Origin: Ilumatobacteraceae bacterium
Lineage (GTDB): Bacteria > Actinomycetota > Acidimicrobiia > Acidimicrobiales > Ilumatobacteraceae
Length of the DNA stretch: 48,141 bases
Assembly: GCA_017859785.1 (NCBI GenBank)
Contig: JAFMMJ010000006.1
Span: forward strand, 1 to 48,141
Reading direction: 5' to 3'
Program-made: the position numbers and the translations under genes
Shown: one piece after another, positions 1,247 to 45,563 of the stretch
Numbering within the stretch: position 1 is the first letter of the stretch
Layout: every line of letters begins with the position of its first letter
Notes under the pieces: generated by a model
The model's database searches: none
Seen by the model: only the letters and a program-made list of their open reading frames with translations
What the model was told of the DNA's origin: nothing

Positions 1247-2344
1247 TCAGCGCCCGACCAGGGCGTCGACGAACTCGCTCGGGTCGAACGGAACCAAATC
1301 GCCCACGCCCTCGCCGACTCCGATGAGTTTGACCGGGATACCGAGTTCGGTCTCGATAGCGAAGACGATTCCGCCTTTCGCTGACCCGTCGAGTTTGGTC
1401 ACTACCACTCCCGTCACATCGGTCGCCTCGCGGAACTCGCGAGCCTGAACGAGACCGTTCTGACCGGTCGTCGCATCGATGACCAGCAACGTCTCGGTGA
1501 CGACTCCGGCACCCTTCTCAGCGACACGGCGCACCTTGGAGAGTTCGTCCATCAAGTTGCTCTTGGTGTGGAGGCGGCCGGCCGTGTCGGCCAGCACGAG
1601 GTCGATGCCGCGGGCGGCCGCCCGTTCAACGGCGTCGTAGACCACCGAGGAGGGGTCGCCCCCCTCGGAGCCCCGCACGACCTCAACACCCGCGCGCTCT
1701 CCCCACATCGTCAACTGCTCGGCGGCCGCGGCCCGGAAGGTGTCGCCGGCCGCGAGCAGGGTGGTCGTGCCGTCGGCCGTCTCGCGACTGGCCAGTTTGC
1801 CGATCGTCGTCGTCTTGCCGACACCGTTGACCCCAACGAAGAGCCAGATCGATGGACCGGCGTCGGCCCGTCGTGCGAGCGAGCGGTCGGCCCCGTCGAG
1901 GCGTCGCGTCATCTCAACGCGCAGGGCGACCACTAAGGATTCAGGGTCGGCGATCTCGCCAGACTCGACCGCCGAGCGCAGCCCGTCGAGGAGGTCGGTA
2001 GTGACGGCGATTCCGATATCGGAGAGCAGCAGCGCCTCCTCCAACTCATCCCAGGTGTCGGCGTCGATGGCGGAGCGACCGAGCACTGATCCGAGCGCCC
2101 CGCCGAGCGCCGCACGTGCCCGCCCGAGGCGCTCCCGCATGCTGCGCGGCGCGGGTTCGGGCTCGGCAGCGACCTCCTCCGGCTCAGTCTCGACAACGAC
2201 CGACGACTCCACCGGCCGTGTCGGCGAGGCGGACTCGCTCGGCCGGCCCGCCGATCGCTTCGACCACCAGAGCACCCCGAGTCCGAAGGCGATGACCCCC
2301 GCGATGAGGATGAGATAGATCCACTGGCTACCGGAGGCGTCCAC
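1247..2344 (-). CDS. ftsY: Signal recognition particle receptor FtsY
   Basis: SRP receptor GTPase that docks ribosome-SRP complexes at the membrane for cotranslational insertion. The 365-residue protein has an N-terminal membrane segment (about residues 8-27, then WWSKR), an acidic Pro/Glu-rich linker (40-65), the N domain, and a GTPase G domain with the P-loop GVNGVGKTTT (171-180), DTAGR (253-257) and TKLDG (316-320). A single transmembrane anchor is usual for actinobacterial FtsY. The start is GTG at 2344, supported by a -10 element TAGCGT seven bases upstream, which suggests a leaderless mRNA. The gene is divergent from the peroxiredoxin and upstream of the partial lipoprotein. Identification is secure. 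Confidence 0.97.
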   Translation of the reverse strand: MDASGSQWIYLILIAGVIAFGLGVLWWSKRSAGRPSESASPTRPVESSVVVETEPEEVAAEPEPAPRSMRERLGRARAALGGALGSVLGRSAIDADTWDELEEALLLSDIGIAVTTDLLDGLRSAVESGEIADPESLVVALRVEMTRRLDGADRSLARRADAGPSIWLFVGVNGVGKTTTIGKLASRETADGTTTLLAAGDTFRAAAAEQLTMWGERAGVEVVRGSEGGDPSSVVYDAVERAAARGIDLVLADTAGRLHTKSNLMDELSKVRRVAEKGAGVVTETLLVIDATTGQNGLVQAREFREATDVTGVVVTKLDGSAKGGIVFAIETELGIPVKLIGVGEGVGDLVPFDPSEFVDALVGR

Positions 2345-2351
2345 GCAACTG

Positions 2352-2363
2352 ACGCTACCGGTG
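2352..2363 (-). promoter_or_regulatory. ftsY promoter -10 region (leaderless type)
   Basis: On the minus strand CACCGGTAGCGT ends seven bases before the ftsY GTG. TAGCGT fits the TANNNT -10 pattern, so transcription would start at or next to the start codon. The same 12-base string precedes rpmB and the parvulin lipoprotein gene. No good -35 hexamer was seen. Confidence 0.5.
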
Positions 2364-2386
2364 GCTGATGACTGGAAGATGATAAA

Positions 2387-2405
2387 CCCGACTTGGTCAG
2401 TCGGG
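2387..2405. promoter_or_regulatory. Palindromic operator, IscR/Rrf2-like
   Basis: CCCGACT and AGTCGGG form a perfect 7-base inverted repeat with a 5-base centre, flanked by A/T-rich ends (ATAAA to the left, AATTAT to the right). The core YYGACT-N5-AGTCRR and its spacing match the E. coli IscR type 1 site. It lies between ftsY and the peroxiredoxin gene and overlaps the probable -35 of the latter, as expected of a repressor site. The sequence similarity is visible; the identity of the regulator is inferred. A plain hairpin is the alternative. Confidence 0.45.
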
Positions 2406-2422
2406 AATTATCGGGTTAGATT
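2393..2422 (+). promoter_or_regulatory. Peroxiredoxin promoter
   Basis: A -35-like TTGGTC (2393-2398) and a -10 TAGATT (2417-2422) are separated by 18 bases. A start near 2429 would give a leader of about 50 bases ending in the GGAG site before the ATG at 2479. This also argues against the upstream in-frame GTG at 2425. The -35 lies inside the inverted repeat at 2387-2405. Confidence 0.5.
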
Positions 2423-2478
2423 CCGTGCCAGCGCCTAAACCGACCAGCCGGTCGGCTGCAACAGAGGAGACATCGACC

Positions 2479-3105
2479 ATGGCACTGAGACTCGGCGACA
2501 CCGCACCCGACTTCCACGCTGACACCACCGACGGCGAGATCGACTTCCATCAGTGGAAGTCCGGTGCCTGGGCGGTCCTGTTCAGCCACCCGGCTGACTT
2601 CACCCCGGTGTGCACCACCGAGCTCGGCCGCACCGCCGCTCTGTCGAAGGAGTTCGCCGCCCGCAACACAAAGGCGATCGCGATCTCGGTTGACCCGATC
2701 GACGACCACCGCGCCTGGGCTCCCGACATCGGCGAGGTCGGCGGCGTGGATCTCAACTTCCCGATCATCGCCGACCCGGACCGCACTGTCGCCGAGCTCT
2801 ACGACATGATCCACCCCGGTGCAGGTGACGCCTCCACGGTTCGCTCGGTCTTCGTGATCGACCCTTCCGACAAGGTCCGCCTCACCCTCACCTACCCGAA
2901 GTCGGTCGGACGGAACTTCGACGAGTTGGTGCGCGTGATCGACGCCTTGCAGGCCACCGACGCCGCCCCGATCGCCACGCCGGCCGACTGGCGCCCCGGG
3001 GACCGCGTGATCGTCTCCCCGGCGATGTCGACCGAGGATGCTCGCGAGCGCTTGGCCAACGTCGAAGAGGTTAAGCCGTACCTCCGCTGGGCCGACCAGC
3101 CCTGA
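2479..3105 (+). CDS. 1-Cys peroxiredoxin (Prx6/AhpC-TSA family)
   Basis: Thiol peroxidase that reduces hydrogen peroxide and organic hydroperoxides in the cytoplasm. The 208-residue protein has the peroxidatic motif DFTPVCTTE with Cys45, an Arg in STVRSVFVID, and the C-terminal extension of the Prx6 class ending in VKPYLRWADQP. Cys45 is the only cysteine, so it is a 1-Cys enzyme that needs an external thiol. I chose the ATG at 2479, with AGGAGA upstream and the typical start MALRLGDTAPDF, over an in-frame GTG at 2425 that would precede the transcription start. It is divergent from ftsY and converges on smc across hairpin repeats. The palindrome over its promoter suggests redox or Fe-S control. 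Confidence 0.93.
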   Translation: MALRLGDTAPDFHADTTDGEIDFHQWKSGAWAVLFSHPADFTPVCTTELGRTAALSKEFAARNTKAIAISVDPIDDHRAWAPDIGEVGGVDLNFPIIADPDRTVAELYDMIHPGAGDASTVRSVFVIDPSDKVRLTLTYPKSVGRNFDELVRVIDALQATDAAPIATPADWRPGDRVIVSPAMSTEDARERLANVEEVKPYLRWADQP

Positions 3106-3120
3106 CGACGGGTTCGTAGT

Positions 3121-3230
3121 TCAACTGGCGGTGGTGACCCGCTCGGTCACCACGAAACTCAACTGGCGGTGGTGACCCGCTCGGTCACCACGAAACTCAA
3201 CTGGCGGTGGTGACCCGCTCGGTCACCACC
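3121..3230. repeat. Three 38-bp tandem repeats, each with a hairpin, at the smc 3' end
   Basis: The units are 3121-3158, 3159-3196 and 3197-3230 (the last is 34 bases). Copy three is the last 11 codons of smc with its stop; copies two and one repeat it downstream of the stop. Each unit contains the inverted repeat GTGGTGACC / GGTCACCAC with a 5-base loop (arms 3131-3139/3145-3153, 3169-3177/3183-3191, 3207-3215/3221-3229). The third stem extends to 10 bp. The array fills the space between the convergent peroxiredoxin and smc genes and probably acts as a bidirectional terminator or mRNA 3'-end stabiliser. No T-tract follows. Confidence 0.9.
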
Positions 3231-6200
3231 TTTGACGACCCGCCGGGTTGCATCGACACGCCGAGGAGCGAATCCCCCGCCTCCATCGTGCGCTTCTGGT
3301 GCGACACGACGATCAGCTGCGCCTCACGACGGAATTCCTGGATGAGCTGCAAGAAACGGTGCAAGTTCACGTCGTCGAGCGCGGCTTCCACCTCGTCCAT
3401 CACGTAGAACGGCGACGGCCGGCTCCGGAACACCGCGAAGAGAAACGCGAGGGCAGTCAACGACCGCTCTCCACCCGAAAGCAGCGAAAGTTTCTTCACG
3501 TTCTTGCCACCCGGCTTCGCCTCAACCTCGATCCCCGTGGCGAGCAGATCATCGGGAGCAGTGAGCTTCAGTGCCCCGGATCCGCCCGGGAAGAGACTCG
3601 CGAACAACTGGGTGAAGTTCGCGCTCACATCAGCGAAGGCCGAGGCGAACACCGTCTGAATCTCGCCGTCGATCGCGGCGATCACGCGGTTCAGGTCGCG
3701 CCGCGTCGACCGCACATCCTCCAACTGCTCCTCGAGGAACTGGTGACGCTGGTTGAGCTCGTTGAACTCCTCGAGAGCGAGCGGATTGATCGGGCCAAGC
3801 AAGCGGAGTTCTCGCTCAAGCTCGCGCACCCGTCCCGCGGCGGTCGCCCCCTCAGGGAGCTCAGGCAACGGCGCGGCCTCGGCTGCCTCGGGCTCGACAT
3901 CGAGATCGCGACGAAGGGTCTCAACGGCGGTCTCGAGCCTCAACCGGGCCTCGGCCTCATCGAGATCGGCGCGATGCGCCCGCTCTCGGGAGGCTTCGAG
4001 AGACTGCTCGGCCTCCACCCTCGCCCGCCGAACCTCGTCGAGCTTGGAGGTCATTTCGCGCACCTCGTCGCTCTGACGGCGGCGGCGCTCGCTCAGCTCG
4101 GCGTGGATCTCCTCGATCTCAGCGAGACGCGTCGACACCCATCCAGAGAGACGTTCCACCGCCACAACCGACCGCTCGAGATCGAGGCGACGCTGCTCGG
4201 CGCTACTCCGAGCCTCAAGGTCGGCATCGAGACGAGCCTCGGTCTCAGCGATACGTCGTCGGAGGAACTCCTCTCGCTCGCGGTGCCCGGCGGAGCGAAC
4301 CTCAAGATCGCGACGCCGTGAGGCGAGCACCGCGACCCTCGCGTCGACCTCAGCCTGCTCCTCCCGACGACGGCGCTCAGCCTCGGCCTCGGCCTGTTCA
4401 TCGGACTCAAGCGACGGCAGCACCGACTCCATCTCAGCCATGCGGACGCGTTCTGACTGGAGATGAGCGACCAAGCCCTCGAGGGAAGACGCGAGCGACT
4501 CGCTCTCACCGGCGAGTTCCCGTCGACGCGACTGAGCGCTCTCGAGCGCCTCGGAAGCCGCGTGGAATCGACCATCGTTCAGGTCGAGCCGGCGCCCCAC
4601 CTCCACCTCGGCGGAGCGGGCGCGCTCGAGCTCGGCGACCGCTGCCGACAGACCCTGCTCGGCCGCCTGCAGCGCGGCATCGGCGGTCTCCGCCGCCGCC
4701 ACCGCCTCCGCCAGCGCAGCAGCCGTCGCCCCACCCGATGACGTGCCGATGCGCCAGCCGCTCGGAGCGAACCGGTCGCCCTCGCGGGTCACCACGGTCA
4801 GCGACGGGTCGGCGAGCGCGATGTCGACCGCCCGATCCACATCTTCGGCGACCACCGCGCGGGCCAACAGCGAACTCAGGAGCTCTGGCACCCCGGTCGA
4901 CGAGGAACTGACGCGACCGAGCAGCGGCACTGCGCCATCGATCGCTCCAGCCGGCTCACGTGAGGCTCCGCCCGTCGCGATCACGGCGCCTGTCGTGCCG
5001 GCGCCGCGAAGGGTCGCGAGCGCTCTCCGAGCCGAACCCGGTCCGTCGACGACCACCGCCGCGAGCGCGTCGCCGAGCGCGGCCTCGACCGCGTCGGCCC
5101 AGCCGTCCTCGATCGTGACCAACTCGAGCAGGGTGCCGAGCACTCCCTCGACCCCAACCAGGCGTTCCGCACCGGCCTTCGCCCGCGCTGAGTCGAGGGC
5201 CATCTGGAGGGCCTCGGCTCGAGCGGAGGTCCGCGAGCGCGACTCAGCGCAACGCTGTCGCTCAGTTGTGGCCCGCTCCAACACGGCGGCCGCGGCCAAA
5301 CGCGCGGATTCGGCCGCGGTGAGTTCGTCCACCAACGGGCCCTCCCCAGCCGCTGCTTCGGCCACCTCGGTGCGGAGACGTTCGATCTCACCGTCGAGCT
5401 CGGCGAGTCGTCGGGCGGCCTGCTCGGCCCGGTCGGCGACACGACGGCGCTCGTTCTCGGACCGGTCCACCGAGGCGCGGACCGACCGCAGCTCTCCGCG
5501 AACCTCCGCGGCCGCGCTCGCGGCGCGCGACCCCGACTCGACAGCGGTGTCGGCGCTGTCCCGCTCGGCGGCGAACGCCTGCTCCTCCTCGGTGAGCTCG
5601 GCGAGGGCTGGTTCGAATCCGGCGAGACCTTCGAGCACCTCCGCGAGTTCCGCTCGATAGCCGGCGACGTCAGCCTCAAGTGTCGCCACCAGGCCAGCAT
5701 CCATGAGTTGGCCGCGATCGCGCTCGAGTCCGCGGCGGCGCTCGGCGAGGATGCCGACCAGACCACGCGCCCGCTCCCTCAGTTGCTCAGCAGCAACGAG
5801 TTGATCTCGGACATCATGCTCACCGCGCGCGGTGAGGCGAGCCTCGATGGCCAACGCCTCGGTGTCAAGGCGAGCGAGATCCGACTTGGCGGTCTGCTCG
5901 GAGCGGGAGGCCTCCATGCGAGCCGTCTCGATCGACTCGAGGCGGGCGCGCATCGCGGCGATCTCTCGACCAGCCACATGGATCCGGAGGGTGTCGAGTT
6001 CGGACTGCAGATCGCCGTGACGCTGGGCGGCCTGGGCCTGTCGCTCGAGCGGTCGCAGCTGACGACGCACCTCTCGCACCAGGTCCTGGAGCCGGAGGAG
6101 GTTCGCCTCGGTCGCGTCGAGCCGACGCTCCGCTTTCTCCTTCCGTTTCCGGAACTTCAACACCCCGGCGGCCTCCTCGATGATCGCGCGGCGATCCTCG

Positions 6201-6661
6201 GGGCGCGCGTTCAGCACGGCGTCGATCTGACCTTGGCTCACGATGACGTGCTGTTGGCGACCAACCCCCGCGTCCGAGAGCAGTTCCTGAACGTCGAGGA
6301 GTCGGCACGGCACGCCGTTGATCGCGTATTCGCTGTCACCGGAACGGAAGAGGATGCGGGTGACGGTGACCTCGTTGAACTCGACCGGGAGCAGTCCGGC
6401 CGAGTTGTCGAGGGTCAGGCTCACCTCGGCCCGACCAAGGGCCGGGCGCTTCGCGGTCCCCGCAAAGATGACATCGTCCATCTTCTGGGAGCGCACCGCT
6501 TTGGGCGCCTGAGCGCCGAGCACCCACGCGATCGCGTCGACGACATTCGACTTCCCTGACCCGTTCGGGCCGACGACAACGGTCACTCCCGGCTCGAGCG
6601 CCATTTCGGTCGCGTCGGCGAATGACTTGAAGCCCTTGAGGGTGAGACTCTTTAGGAACAC
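3197..6661 (-). CDS. smc: Chromosome segregation protein SMC
   Basis: ATPase of the bacterial condensin complex, which extrudes DNA loops and organises the nucleoid together with ScpA and ScpB. The 1154-residue protein has the full architecture: head N-lobe with Walker A GPNGSGKS (31-38), a long coiled coil, a hinge near residues 480-640, a return coiled coil, and a C-lobe with the signature LSGGERSLTALAF and Walker B FYVMDEVEAALDD. Length is normal for the family. The start is GTG at 6661 with a -10-like TAGATT ten bases upstream. mutM, rnc and acpP lie upstream on the same strand, an actinobacterial order. The final codons sit in the tandem hairpin repeat. Confidence 0.98.
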   Translation of the reverse strand: MFLKSLTLKGFKSFADATEMALEPGVTVVVGPNGSGKSNVVDAIAWVLGAQAPKAVRSQKMDDVIFAGTAKRPALGRAEVSLTLDNSAGLLPVEFNEVTVTRILFRSGDSEYAINGVPCRLLDVQELLSDAGVGRQQHVIVSQGQIDAVLNARPEDRRAIIEEAAGVLKFRKRKEKAERRLDATEANLLRLQDLVREVRRQLRPLERQAQAAQRHGDLQSELDTLRIHVAGREIAAMRARLESIETARMEASRSEQTAKSDLARLDTEALAIEARLTARGEHDVRDQLVAAEQLRERARGLVGILAERRRGLERDRGQLMDAGLVATLEADVAGYRAELAEVLEGLAGFEPALAELTEEEQAFAAERDSADTAVESGSRAASAAAEVRGELRSVRASVDRSENERRRVADRAEQAARRLAELDGEIERLRTEVAEAAAGEGPLVDELTAAESARLAAAAVLERATTERQRCAESRSRTSARAEALQMALDSARAKAGAERLVGVEGVLGTLLELVTIEDGWADAVEAALGDALAAVVVDGPGSARRALATLRGAGTTGAVIATGGASREPAGAIDGAVPLLGRVSSSSTGVPELLSSLLARAVVAEDVDRAVDIALADPSLTVVTREGDRFAPSGWRIGTSSGGATAAALAEAVAAAETADAALQAAEQGLSAAVAELERARSAEVEVGRRLDLNDGRFHAASEALESAQSRRRELAGESESLASSLEGLVAHLQSERVRMAEMESVLPSLESDEQAEAEAERRRREEQAEVDARVAVLASRRRDLEVRSAGHREREEFLRRRIAETEARLDADLEARSSAEQRRLDLERSVVAVERLSGWVSTRLAEIEEIHAELSERRRRQSDEVREMTSKLDEVRRARVEAEQSLEASRERAHRADLDEAEARLRLETAVETLRRDLDVEPEAAEAAPLPELPEGATAAGRVRELERELRLLGPINPLALEEFNELNQRHQFLEEQLEDVRSTRRDLNRVIAAIDGEIQTVFASAFADVSANFTQLFASLFPGGSGALKLTAPDDLLATGIEVEAKPGGKNVKKLSLLSGGERSLTALAFLFAVFRSRPSPFYVMDEVEAALDDVNLHRFLQLIQEFRREAQLIVVSHQKRTMEAGDSLLGVSMQPGGSSKVVTERVTTAS

Positions 6662-6671
6662 GGTGGAGCCG

Positions 6672-6677
6672 AATCTA
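6672..6677 (-). promoter_or_regulatory. Candidate -10 element of smc
   Basis: TAGATT on the minus strand, ten bases before the smc GTG, in the 45-base gap after mutM. It would give a leaderless or nearly leaderless smc transcript. Confidence 0.35.
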
Positions 6678-6706
6678 CTCCCCCGCCCCCGCGCGGAACG
6701 GGTACG

Positions 6707-7543
6707 TCAGCGTTGACAGACGGGGCAGTGGTAGGTGCCGCGCTGGGCAACCGTGGAACGCCGGATCCGACCTCGACCGCAGGTCGAGCAGCGCGCACCA
6801 GGCCGGGCGTGCACTCGGTGCTCGCGCTGGAACTCGCCGGGCCGCCCGTCGACCCCGACGTATTGGGCATCCGACAGCGTCGACCCCCCGGCGGCGACAG
6901 CCTCTCGCAGCACGTCCACGATCGCCGAGGCCAGTCGGCGCTCAGCGGCGAGCCCGAGACCGTCGCTACGACGAGTCGGTCGGAGACGAGCGCGGTGGCA
7001 GATCTCATCGGCGTAGATGTTGCCGATGCCGGCGATGAACGATTGGTCGAGGAGCAAAGGTTTCAACGCGCGACGTCGGCTCCGGAGGCCCGCTCGGAGA
7101 GCGGCGAGGTCAAGGCCGTCGCGAAGCGGATCCGGTCCGAGGCGCGCGAGCTCGGGCACCTCGTCGGCTACCCGCATCGGATCGAAGACGACGACCTCTC
7201 CGAAGGTTCTCGGATCCACGAAGAGCATGCGGCGCCCATCGTCAAGACGAGCGTCGACGTGGGTGTGCGCGGGCGCGCCGGCATCGCCGTCGACGAGGAG
7301 GACCTGTCCGCTCATGCGGAGATGGATCATCGCTGATCGACCGGTGTCGAGGCCGATGATCAAGTACTTGCCATGCCGGTCGACCTCGTCGACTCGGGCC
7401 CCGGTGAGGCCAGCGATGAGCGCCGTGCGGGACGTTCGTCGCACCACGCGATCACGGCCGACCGCGACCTCGGCGAATCGGCGGCCGGTCAGCCCCGAGG
7501 CGAGACCGAGGCGTACGACCTCGACTTCGGGTGCCTCGGGCAC
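6707..7543 (-). CDS. mutM: Formamidopyrimidine-DNA glycosylase (Fpg/MutM)
   Basis: Base-excision repair enzyme that removes oxidised purines such as 8-oxoguanine and nicks the abasic site. The 278-residue protein starts with PEAPEVE, where Pro2 is the catalytic nucleophile and Glu3 the acid; the usual form is PELPEVE. Lys59 lies in RHGKYL, the helix-two-turn-helix region is near SFIAGIGNIYADE, and the C-terminal zinc finger has C-STC followed by CPVC. The start is GTG at 7543, four bases after the rnc stop, so translation is probably coupled in an rnc-mutM-smc unit. No key residue is missing. Confidence 0.96.
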   Translation of the reverse strand: MPEAPEVEVVRLGLASGLTGRRFAEVAVGRDRVVRRTSRTALIAGLTGARVDEVDRHGKYLIIGLDTGRSAMIHLRMSGQVLLVDGDAGAPAHTHVDARLDDGRRMLFVDPRTFGEVVVFDPMRVADEVPELARLGPDPLRDGLDLAALRAGLRSRRRALKPLLLDQSFIAGIGNIYADEICHRARLRPTRRSDGLGLAAERRLASAIVDVLREAVAAGGSTLSDAQYVGVDGRPGEFQREHRVHARPGARCSTCGRGRIRRSTVAQRGTYHCPVCQR

Positions 7544-7547
7544 CGGA

Positions 7548-8240
7548 TCACCCGTCGAGTCCGTCGAGGGCGTCGAGAGCGGCGGCCTGCTCGGCGTCCT
7601 TCTTCGACCGACCCGAGCCCGAACCGAGAAGCGTTCCCTCGGAGAGCACTTGGGCGGTGAACACCTTGTCGTGATCGGGCCCGGTGGCCGAGGAGCGATA
7701 CTCAGGAGGCTCGCGACCGTCAGCGGCCAGCCGCTCCTGGAGAGCTGATTTGCGGTCGAGGCGATGCAGTCCGTCGAGGGCGCGCTCGAGGCGTGGCGCG
7801 ACCCGGGTCACGACGAGTCGTCGGGCGGCTTCCACTCCGCCGTCGAGATAGACGGCTCCAAGCACGGCCTCGAATGCGTCGGACAGGATCGAGTCCTTGT
7901 CCCCGCCCCCTGCGGCCTCTTCGCCGCGACCGAGGTAGACGTGGCCGCCGAGTCCGATCGATCGAGCCACCTCGGCGAGCGCCCGCTGGTTAACGACCGC
8001 CTTGCGGAGATCGGTGAGCGCCCCCTCCGCGCGATCGGCGTAACGGTGGTAAGCGAAGTCGGCGATCACCCAGCCGAGAACGGCGTCGCCGAGGAACTCG
8101 AGTCGCTCGTTGCTCTCCGCCGCCCCGTTCTCGGCCACCCAGGAGCGGTGACTCAGCGCACGCCGGAGCAGGCCGAGGTCGTCGAAACGATGCCCAAGAG
8201 CCTCCTCAAGGGCGGAGAGGTCATCAGGTCCGGAGACCAC
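7548..8240 (-). CDS. rnc: Ribonuclease III
   Basis: Double-strand-specific endoribonuclease for rRNA maturation and mRNA turnover. The 230-residue protein carries the signature RLEFLGDAVLG, the second acidic cluster DKDSILSDAFEAVLGA, and a C-terminal double-stranded-RNA-binding domain (from about residue 155) ending in GSGRSKKDAEQAAALDAL. The start is GTG at 8240, five bases after the acpP stop and without a clear ribosome site, suggesting translational coupling to acpP. The acpP-rnc-mutM-smc order is a common actinobacterial arrangement. Confidence 0.96.
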   Translation of the reverse strand: MVSGPDDLSALEEALGHRFDDLGLLRRALSHRSWVAENGAAESNERLEFLGDAVLGWVIADFAYHRYADRAEGALTDLRKAVVNQRALAEVARSIGLGGHVYLGRGEEAAGGGDKDSILSDAFEAVLGAVYLDGGVEAARRLVVTRVAPRLERALDGLHRLDRKSALQERLAADGREPPEYRSSATGPDHDKVFTAQVLSEGTLLGSGSGRSKKDAEQAAALDALDGLDG

Positions 8241-45467: not shown

Positions 45468-45499
45468 GGATGAGCCCGGGCTTCGGCCCGGGCTCATCC
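45468..45499. terminator. Hairpin 2 (14-bp stem, TTCG loop) between BMP and ATPase genes
   Basis: Arms at 45468-45481 and 45486-45499 form a perfect 14-bp stem closed by a TTCG tetraloop, an unusually stable RNA hairpin. It should reduce readthrough or protect the 3' end of the BMP mRNA, so the receptor is made in excess over the ATPase and permease, as in many importers. Confidence 0.7.
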
Positions 45500-45563
45500 C
45501 GTCATGGGGGGCGGTGGTGATACAGCCCCTCTGCTAGAACGTGAACCGCATGGGGGGACGCGA

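Follow-up and report, generated by a model that had tools for sequence, protein, structure and literature searches.

We identified, between the convergent genes for the chromosome condensation ATPase Smc and a 1-Cys peroxiredoxin, an array of three 38-bp units arranged head-to-tail (positions 3121-3229) that spans the smc stop codon and takes in the convergent gap and the 3' end of smc. The triplicated array is real within the assembly and probably represents a local, recent duplication. We favor, as the probable reading, a young minisatellite observed in just one lineage, with two-step slippage as its likeliest origin. Selection for an effect on transcription is unnecessary to explain the array, and nothing in the evidence calls for a new class of element.

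Structure and gene setting of the array

The window (the whole 48,141-nt stretch of DNA analyzed) is one entire contig of the assembly of G000, the genome that contains it (1.96 Mb in 114 contigs, 98.81% complete), and the copy number comes from this single metagenome-assembled genome (MAG). The smc gene (3197-6661, minus strand; Pfam SMC_N and SMC_hinge) encodes a protein of 1154 amino acids. Upstream of it is a mutM-like gene used as a synteny marker (6707-7543, minus strand; Pfam Fapy_DNA_glyco and H2TH). The peroxiredoxin gene (2425-3105, plus strand; Pfam AhpC-TSA and 1-cysPrx_C) sits between smc and ftsY (1247-2344, minus strand; Pfam SRP54 and SRP54_N) on the strand opposite to both. 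The gap separating smc from the peroxiredoxin gene measures 91 nt, of which the two extra units account for 76 nt. The earlier note had placed the array across the smc stop codon, and this location holds. It had also described exact tandem copies of the last 38 bases of smc; the tandem triplication of the smc 3' end stands, yet the copied portion of smc spans 33 nt, encoding VVTERVTTAS and the stop TGA, to which a 5-nt linker is added. The source copy, made of the last ten smc codons and the stop (3197-3229, TGA at 3197-3199), shares these 33 nt with the other copies and then diverges from them (CTTTG vs GAAAC). The non-coding copy farthest from smc (copy 1, 3121-3158) comprises the 33-nt core and the linker, and the second non-coding copy (copy 2, 3159-3196) matches it at 38 of 38 nt; both linkers are identical and read GTTTC on the smc strand. 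One copy is thus coding and two are not, as previously noted, except that the coding copy is last only on the plus strand and is the first met by the smc transcript. The TGA codons of the three copies fall in three different frames because 38 is not a multiple of three.

Each copy carries the stem of 9 to 10 bp already reported for it. The arms GTGGTGACC and GGTCACCAC pair over 9 bp around the 5-nt loop gagcg in copies 1 (3131-3153) and 2 (3169-3191) and over 10 bp in the smc copy (3206-3230). Tandem Repeats Finder scored the array at 218, the maximum for the window, with a runner-up of 74. Further, no exact repeat in the window exceeds the 71 bp of the array; with the array excised the longest is 20 bp, compared with 15-19 bp in 20 Markov-1 simulations. 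Simulated windows contain on average 5.35 stems of at least 9 bp, so it is the tandem copying, rather than the stem itself, that goes beyond chance. We also sampled 299,086 bases of G000 (the window and 20 further stretches, 15% of the genome), which held four tandem arrays with a period of at least 12 and a score of at least 80; only the array at smc has a period that is not a multiple of three. Other repeats and stems were noticed as well: at 45468-45499, in the gap just ahead of a predicted gene at 45504, a perfect stem of 14 bp closed by a TTCG loop and lacking a T-tract; in the gap between two same-strand predicted genes (L167, 1127-1159), a perfect stem of 15 bp with a loop of 3 nt; and at a contig end (L156, 3-211, the start of contig C4), 11.6 tandem copies of an 18-bp unit at 97% identity.

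Near-identical tandem units at one locus fit a minisatellite. Like bacterial minisatellites and VNTRs, it consists of short identical units placed head-to-tail in an intergenic gap, with one unit in the sister species and three here. It differs from them in having only three units, in its hairpin-forming unit overlapping a stop codon, and in that the difference is seen between species rather than strains. An assembly artefact, in which the true locus would have one copy or another copy number, is improbable. The source is a single MAG in 114 contigs and the assembly of a near relative, G003, is interrupted on either side of the junction, yet the entire array (109 bp) is shorter than a 150-base read and the contig continues for 48 kb. 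Moreover, the two identical linkers are unlike both flanks, and mistaken joining of one copy would not yield them.

Distribution among relatives

The expansion looks lineage-specific, because the sister genome G009 has the same pair of peroxiredoxin and smc genes with one copy and a 7-nt gap. Its Smc is 90% identical over residues 31-1153, and subtracting two units from the window would leave a gap of 15 nt. Copy number thus differs between species, from three in G000 to one in G009. Read by eye, the G009 hairpin shares the 10-nt arms, in which one position is mismatched and another forms a wobble pair, and it is weaker than that of G000. G003 is the nearest genome, its Smc being 96% identical over residues 1-1033, and its assembly lacks the stretch from smc residue 1033 to peroxiredoxin residue 144. 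The two G003 contig ends (L006 and L047), one within smc and the other within the peroxiredoxin gene, lie on either side of this very junction, a pattern that could reflect chance or strain variation.

We searched 16 genomes of the genus, 11 of which have a readable smc-ftsY stretch besides G000, G009 and G003; no smc match was found in two of the 16 (G002 and G010). The search of these stretches covered four proteins. In 10 of the 11, ftsY follows close behind smc on the same strand; the eleventh, G008, carries between them a ferritin-like gene convergent with smc. The peroxiredoxin gene adjoins ftsY in G000, G009 and G003 (in G003 with the contig ending inside the gene) and in none of the 11. 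Two different head-on genes have reached the smc-ftsY junction, the 1-Cys peroxiredoxin gene in G000, G009 and G003 and the ferritin-like gene, Dps-like by eye, in G008 (L015, 940-1476).

A wider survey of smc ends returned 111 distinct hits, five without a readable stop and 106 readable, the window included. No comparable tandem array was present at the 105 other ends, where the longest exact tandem match was 24 nt, versus 71 nt in the window, for periods of 12-89 and a span of -100 to +203 nt around the stop (two rows had just 22 and 6 nt downstream). A 23-mer from the array, allowing up to 2 mismatches, matched 7 of 221 genomes of the family, many of them incomplete, and occurred more than once only in G000; the matches in G001 and G023 lie at the smc end. 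Titles and abstract openings of the papers found in literature searches revealed no report of such an array, nor of a tandem repeat at Ilumatobacter smc.

REP and MIRU repeats are palindromic or stop-overlapping intergenic repeats, at times in tandem. The array resembles them in being palindromic, stop-overlapping and tandem, but it differs in that it is not dispersed and occupies one locus in the genome. That the array belongs to a dispersed repeat or a protein-binding palindrome (REP-like, MIRU-like or operator) is highly implausible, even though each of the three copies contains a perfect inverted repeat of 23-25 bp and the pattern GTGACC-N5-GGTCAC, with one mismatch allowed, turns up 34 times in G000, compared with 6 for the backwards pattern. 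The exact pattern is found at just two places outside the array, and a 24-mer with up to 3 mismatches nowhere in G000 outside the array's three places. Furthermore, the excess of short palindromes is codon-like: once the array was masked in the 299-kb sample, matches with at most 2 mismatches were most numerous at spacings 2, 5, 8 and 11 (58, 69, 59 and 59) and numbered 22 to 37 at the other nine. Codon usage is the likelier cause, because the excess recurs at every third spacing. We rejected a dispersed repeat, operator or mobile element on the single-locus 24-mer, the 23-mer repeated only in G000 and the three-base spacing rhythm. A known RNA family was also discarded, as positions 2000-4500 gave two sub-threshold matches, neither overlapping the array.

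Hairpin folding and the terminator question

The array folds strongly, with z -3.50 on the plus strand and z -6.88 on the minus strand, where the minimum free energy (MFE) structure nests the copies rather than forming three separate hairpins. In the comparison of gene junctions described below, its local folding energy is -19.9 kcal/mol on the plus strand and -21.2 kcal/mol on the minus strand. Valine codons (GTN) come close to being reverse complements of threonine codons (ACN) and, going by the genetic code, a VVT-ER-VTT stretch would thus tend to form a hairpin with itself. The 3' segment of smc in the window nonetheless folds better than random synonymous codons (z -2.89 and -3.05 in two runs). 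Codon-adjusted z values ran from -3.0 to -3.8 in G009, G011 and G012, were intermediate (about -1.6) in G004, G006, G014 and G015 and indicated no effect (-0.4 to +0.5) in G001, G005, G007, G008 and G013. The genus mean of -1.64, from 13 rows of close relatives, three of them identical in the segment, ranks fifth of 691 overlapping smc windows. These values hint that the coding hairpin is favored beyond codon usage in some genus members; we take them as a hint only, because four of the other smc windows score higher. A conserved 3' hairpin across the order, also considered, is not general (mean codon-adjusted z -0.05, 94 distinct segments), and the 12 order segments with TERV averaged -1.21. 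Among 11 distinct genus segments, 5 cells changed on both sides of a pair; the covariation score was reached by 9 of 500 shuffles, the paired cells by 22, the cells changed on both sides by 56 and the pairs with such a change by 398.

Could the array be a selected bidirectional terminator, a hairpin copied past the stop, free of ribosomes and shielding smc and the inserted peroxiredoxin gene, each against transcription coming from the other? We consider this unlikely, though not negligibly so. The array lies exactly in the convergent gap, folds strongly on both strands and gives the longest perfect stem of 39 sampled convergent junctions, itself included (10 bp; next 7). Against this, its folding energy is surpassed at several other junctions, it is present in one genome only, the sister species G009 manages without it and rho is present in G000. 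Ju and colleagues reportedly described, in 2019, bidirectional terminators between convergent genes. The array resembles these as a palindrome placed in a convergent gap and potentially usable on both strands, and is unlike them in having no T/A tracts flanking the stems. The G+C-rich hairpin of a canonical bidirectional Rho-independent terminator, readable on both strands, is present (perfect stems of 9-10 bp), but the T-tract is missing on both strands. Indeed, a scan of both strands from 2400 to 7600 found no terminator-like site with a T-tract, and the tails that follow the stems are GAAACTCAAC (copies 1 and 2) and TTTGACGACC on the plus strand and CGCCAGTTGA (copies 1 and 2) and GCCAGTTGAG on the minus strand. 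The genome sample held 26 perfect stems of at least 9 bp, three of them within the array, compared with 16-23 in three simulations; one of the 26 has a T-rich tail.

Within the sampled 15% of the genome, convergent ends show little or no enrichment of hairpins. The best stem averaged 5.28 bp at convergent ends (n = 39), 5.47 bp in same-strand gaps and 4.76 bp in coding controls (n = 209), and folding of -18 kcal/mol or lower was found in 36, 32 and 29% of them, respectively; these figures come from a home-made gene caller and stretches of unequal length and are descriptive, without a significance test. No clear enrichment at gene ends emerged from this comparison. The proposal in the earlier note that a single copy is a terminator strengthened by copying is therefore unsupported, given the missing T-tract sites, the little enrichment at convergent ends and the one weaker copy in G009. 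A strengthened bidirectional terminator would be a possible role for the array, U-less hairpin clusters having been described in actinobacteria. Gupta and Pal (2021; PMC8355165) define hairpin clusters as hairpins less than 15 bases apart and state that tandem hairpins downstream of gyrA in Mycobacterium smegmatis terminate better than single ones. The array is like these clusters in its stems of 9-10 bp, set 14-15 nt apart and at most 80 nt from the stop codon, without a U-tract. Its spacings of 15 nt (3154-3168) and 14 nt (3192-3205) straddle the limit of less than 15, and the minus-strand structure nests the copies. It also differs from those clusters in being built of identical duplicates of coding sequence, with one stem inside the gene. 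Similarly, U-less structured ends and bidirectional ends have been described in Streptomyces clavuligerus (PMC8269248).

The same hairpins might instead act after transcription, without ending it, by protecting either mRNA (smc or peroxiredoxin) against degradation by 3' exonucleases. Both transcripts carry strong 3' hairpins that lack T-tracts, which would suit this role, but the array was not seen in relatives and the points raised against a terminator apply equally; we regard this alternative as quite improbable.

Origin and significance of the array

The identical linkers, which match neither flank, lead us to infer two events in the favored reading of a young minisatellite. The coding hairpin GTGGTGACC-gagcg-GGTCACCAC, which arises from the codons for VVTERVTT, would cause pausing or slippage of the replication fork. 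The first of the two events would then produce a second 33-nt copy plus the 5-nt filler GTTTC, and a second, exact 38-nt slippage would duplicate unit and filler together. The first duplication would not be plain slippage, because the linker matches neither flank. Ku-dependent end joining is an unlikely source of the filler, since no Ku match was found in G000 (a MAG 98.81% complete). Likewise, no MutS_V match was found in G000, and NucS was. NucS is not known to mend loops. The lack of a MutS_V match and the presence of NucS are thus consistent with poor repair of slipped loops.

Once formed, the array would give both mRNAs out-of-frame, ribosome-free hairpins at their 3' ends, the smc copy being translated and copies 1 and 2 not. 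The resulting U-less hairpin cluster, a modest one, could pause or end transcription on both strands or shield the 3' ends; a modest effect on transcription is plausible. The codon-adjusted strength of the hairpin in the genus and the 5 cells changed on both sides of a pair hint, against this reading, at selection on the hairpin itself. A bolder reading, in which coding sequence gave rise to a terminator, seems distinctly unlikely. It holds that a palindrome favored at the smc end in part of the genus (z about -3 or below in G000, G009, G011 and G012) was copied out of frame past the stop, beyond the reach of ribosome melting. With the peroxiredoxin gene already inserted head-on between smc and ftsY, the lineage would in this way have acquired a bidirectional cluster of U-less hairpins, whose copies were kept by selection.

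If the array is functional, it would illustrate how duplicating coding sequence beyond a stop codon can create a non-coding termination element, the sister species still showing the single-copy state. If it is neutral, it would be a small minisatellite specific to this lineage that might serve as a strain marker.
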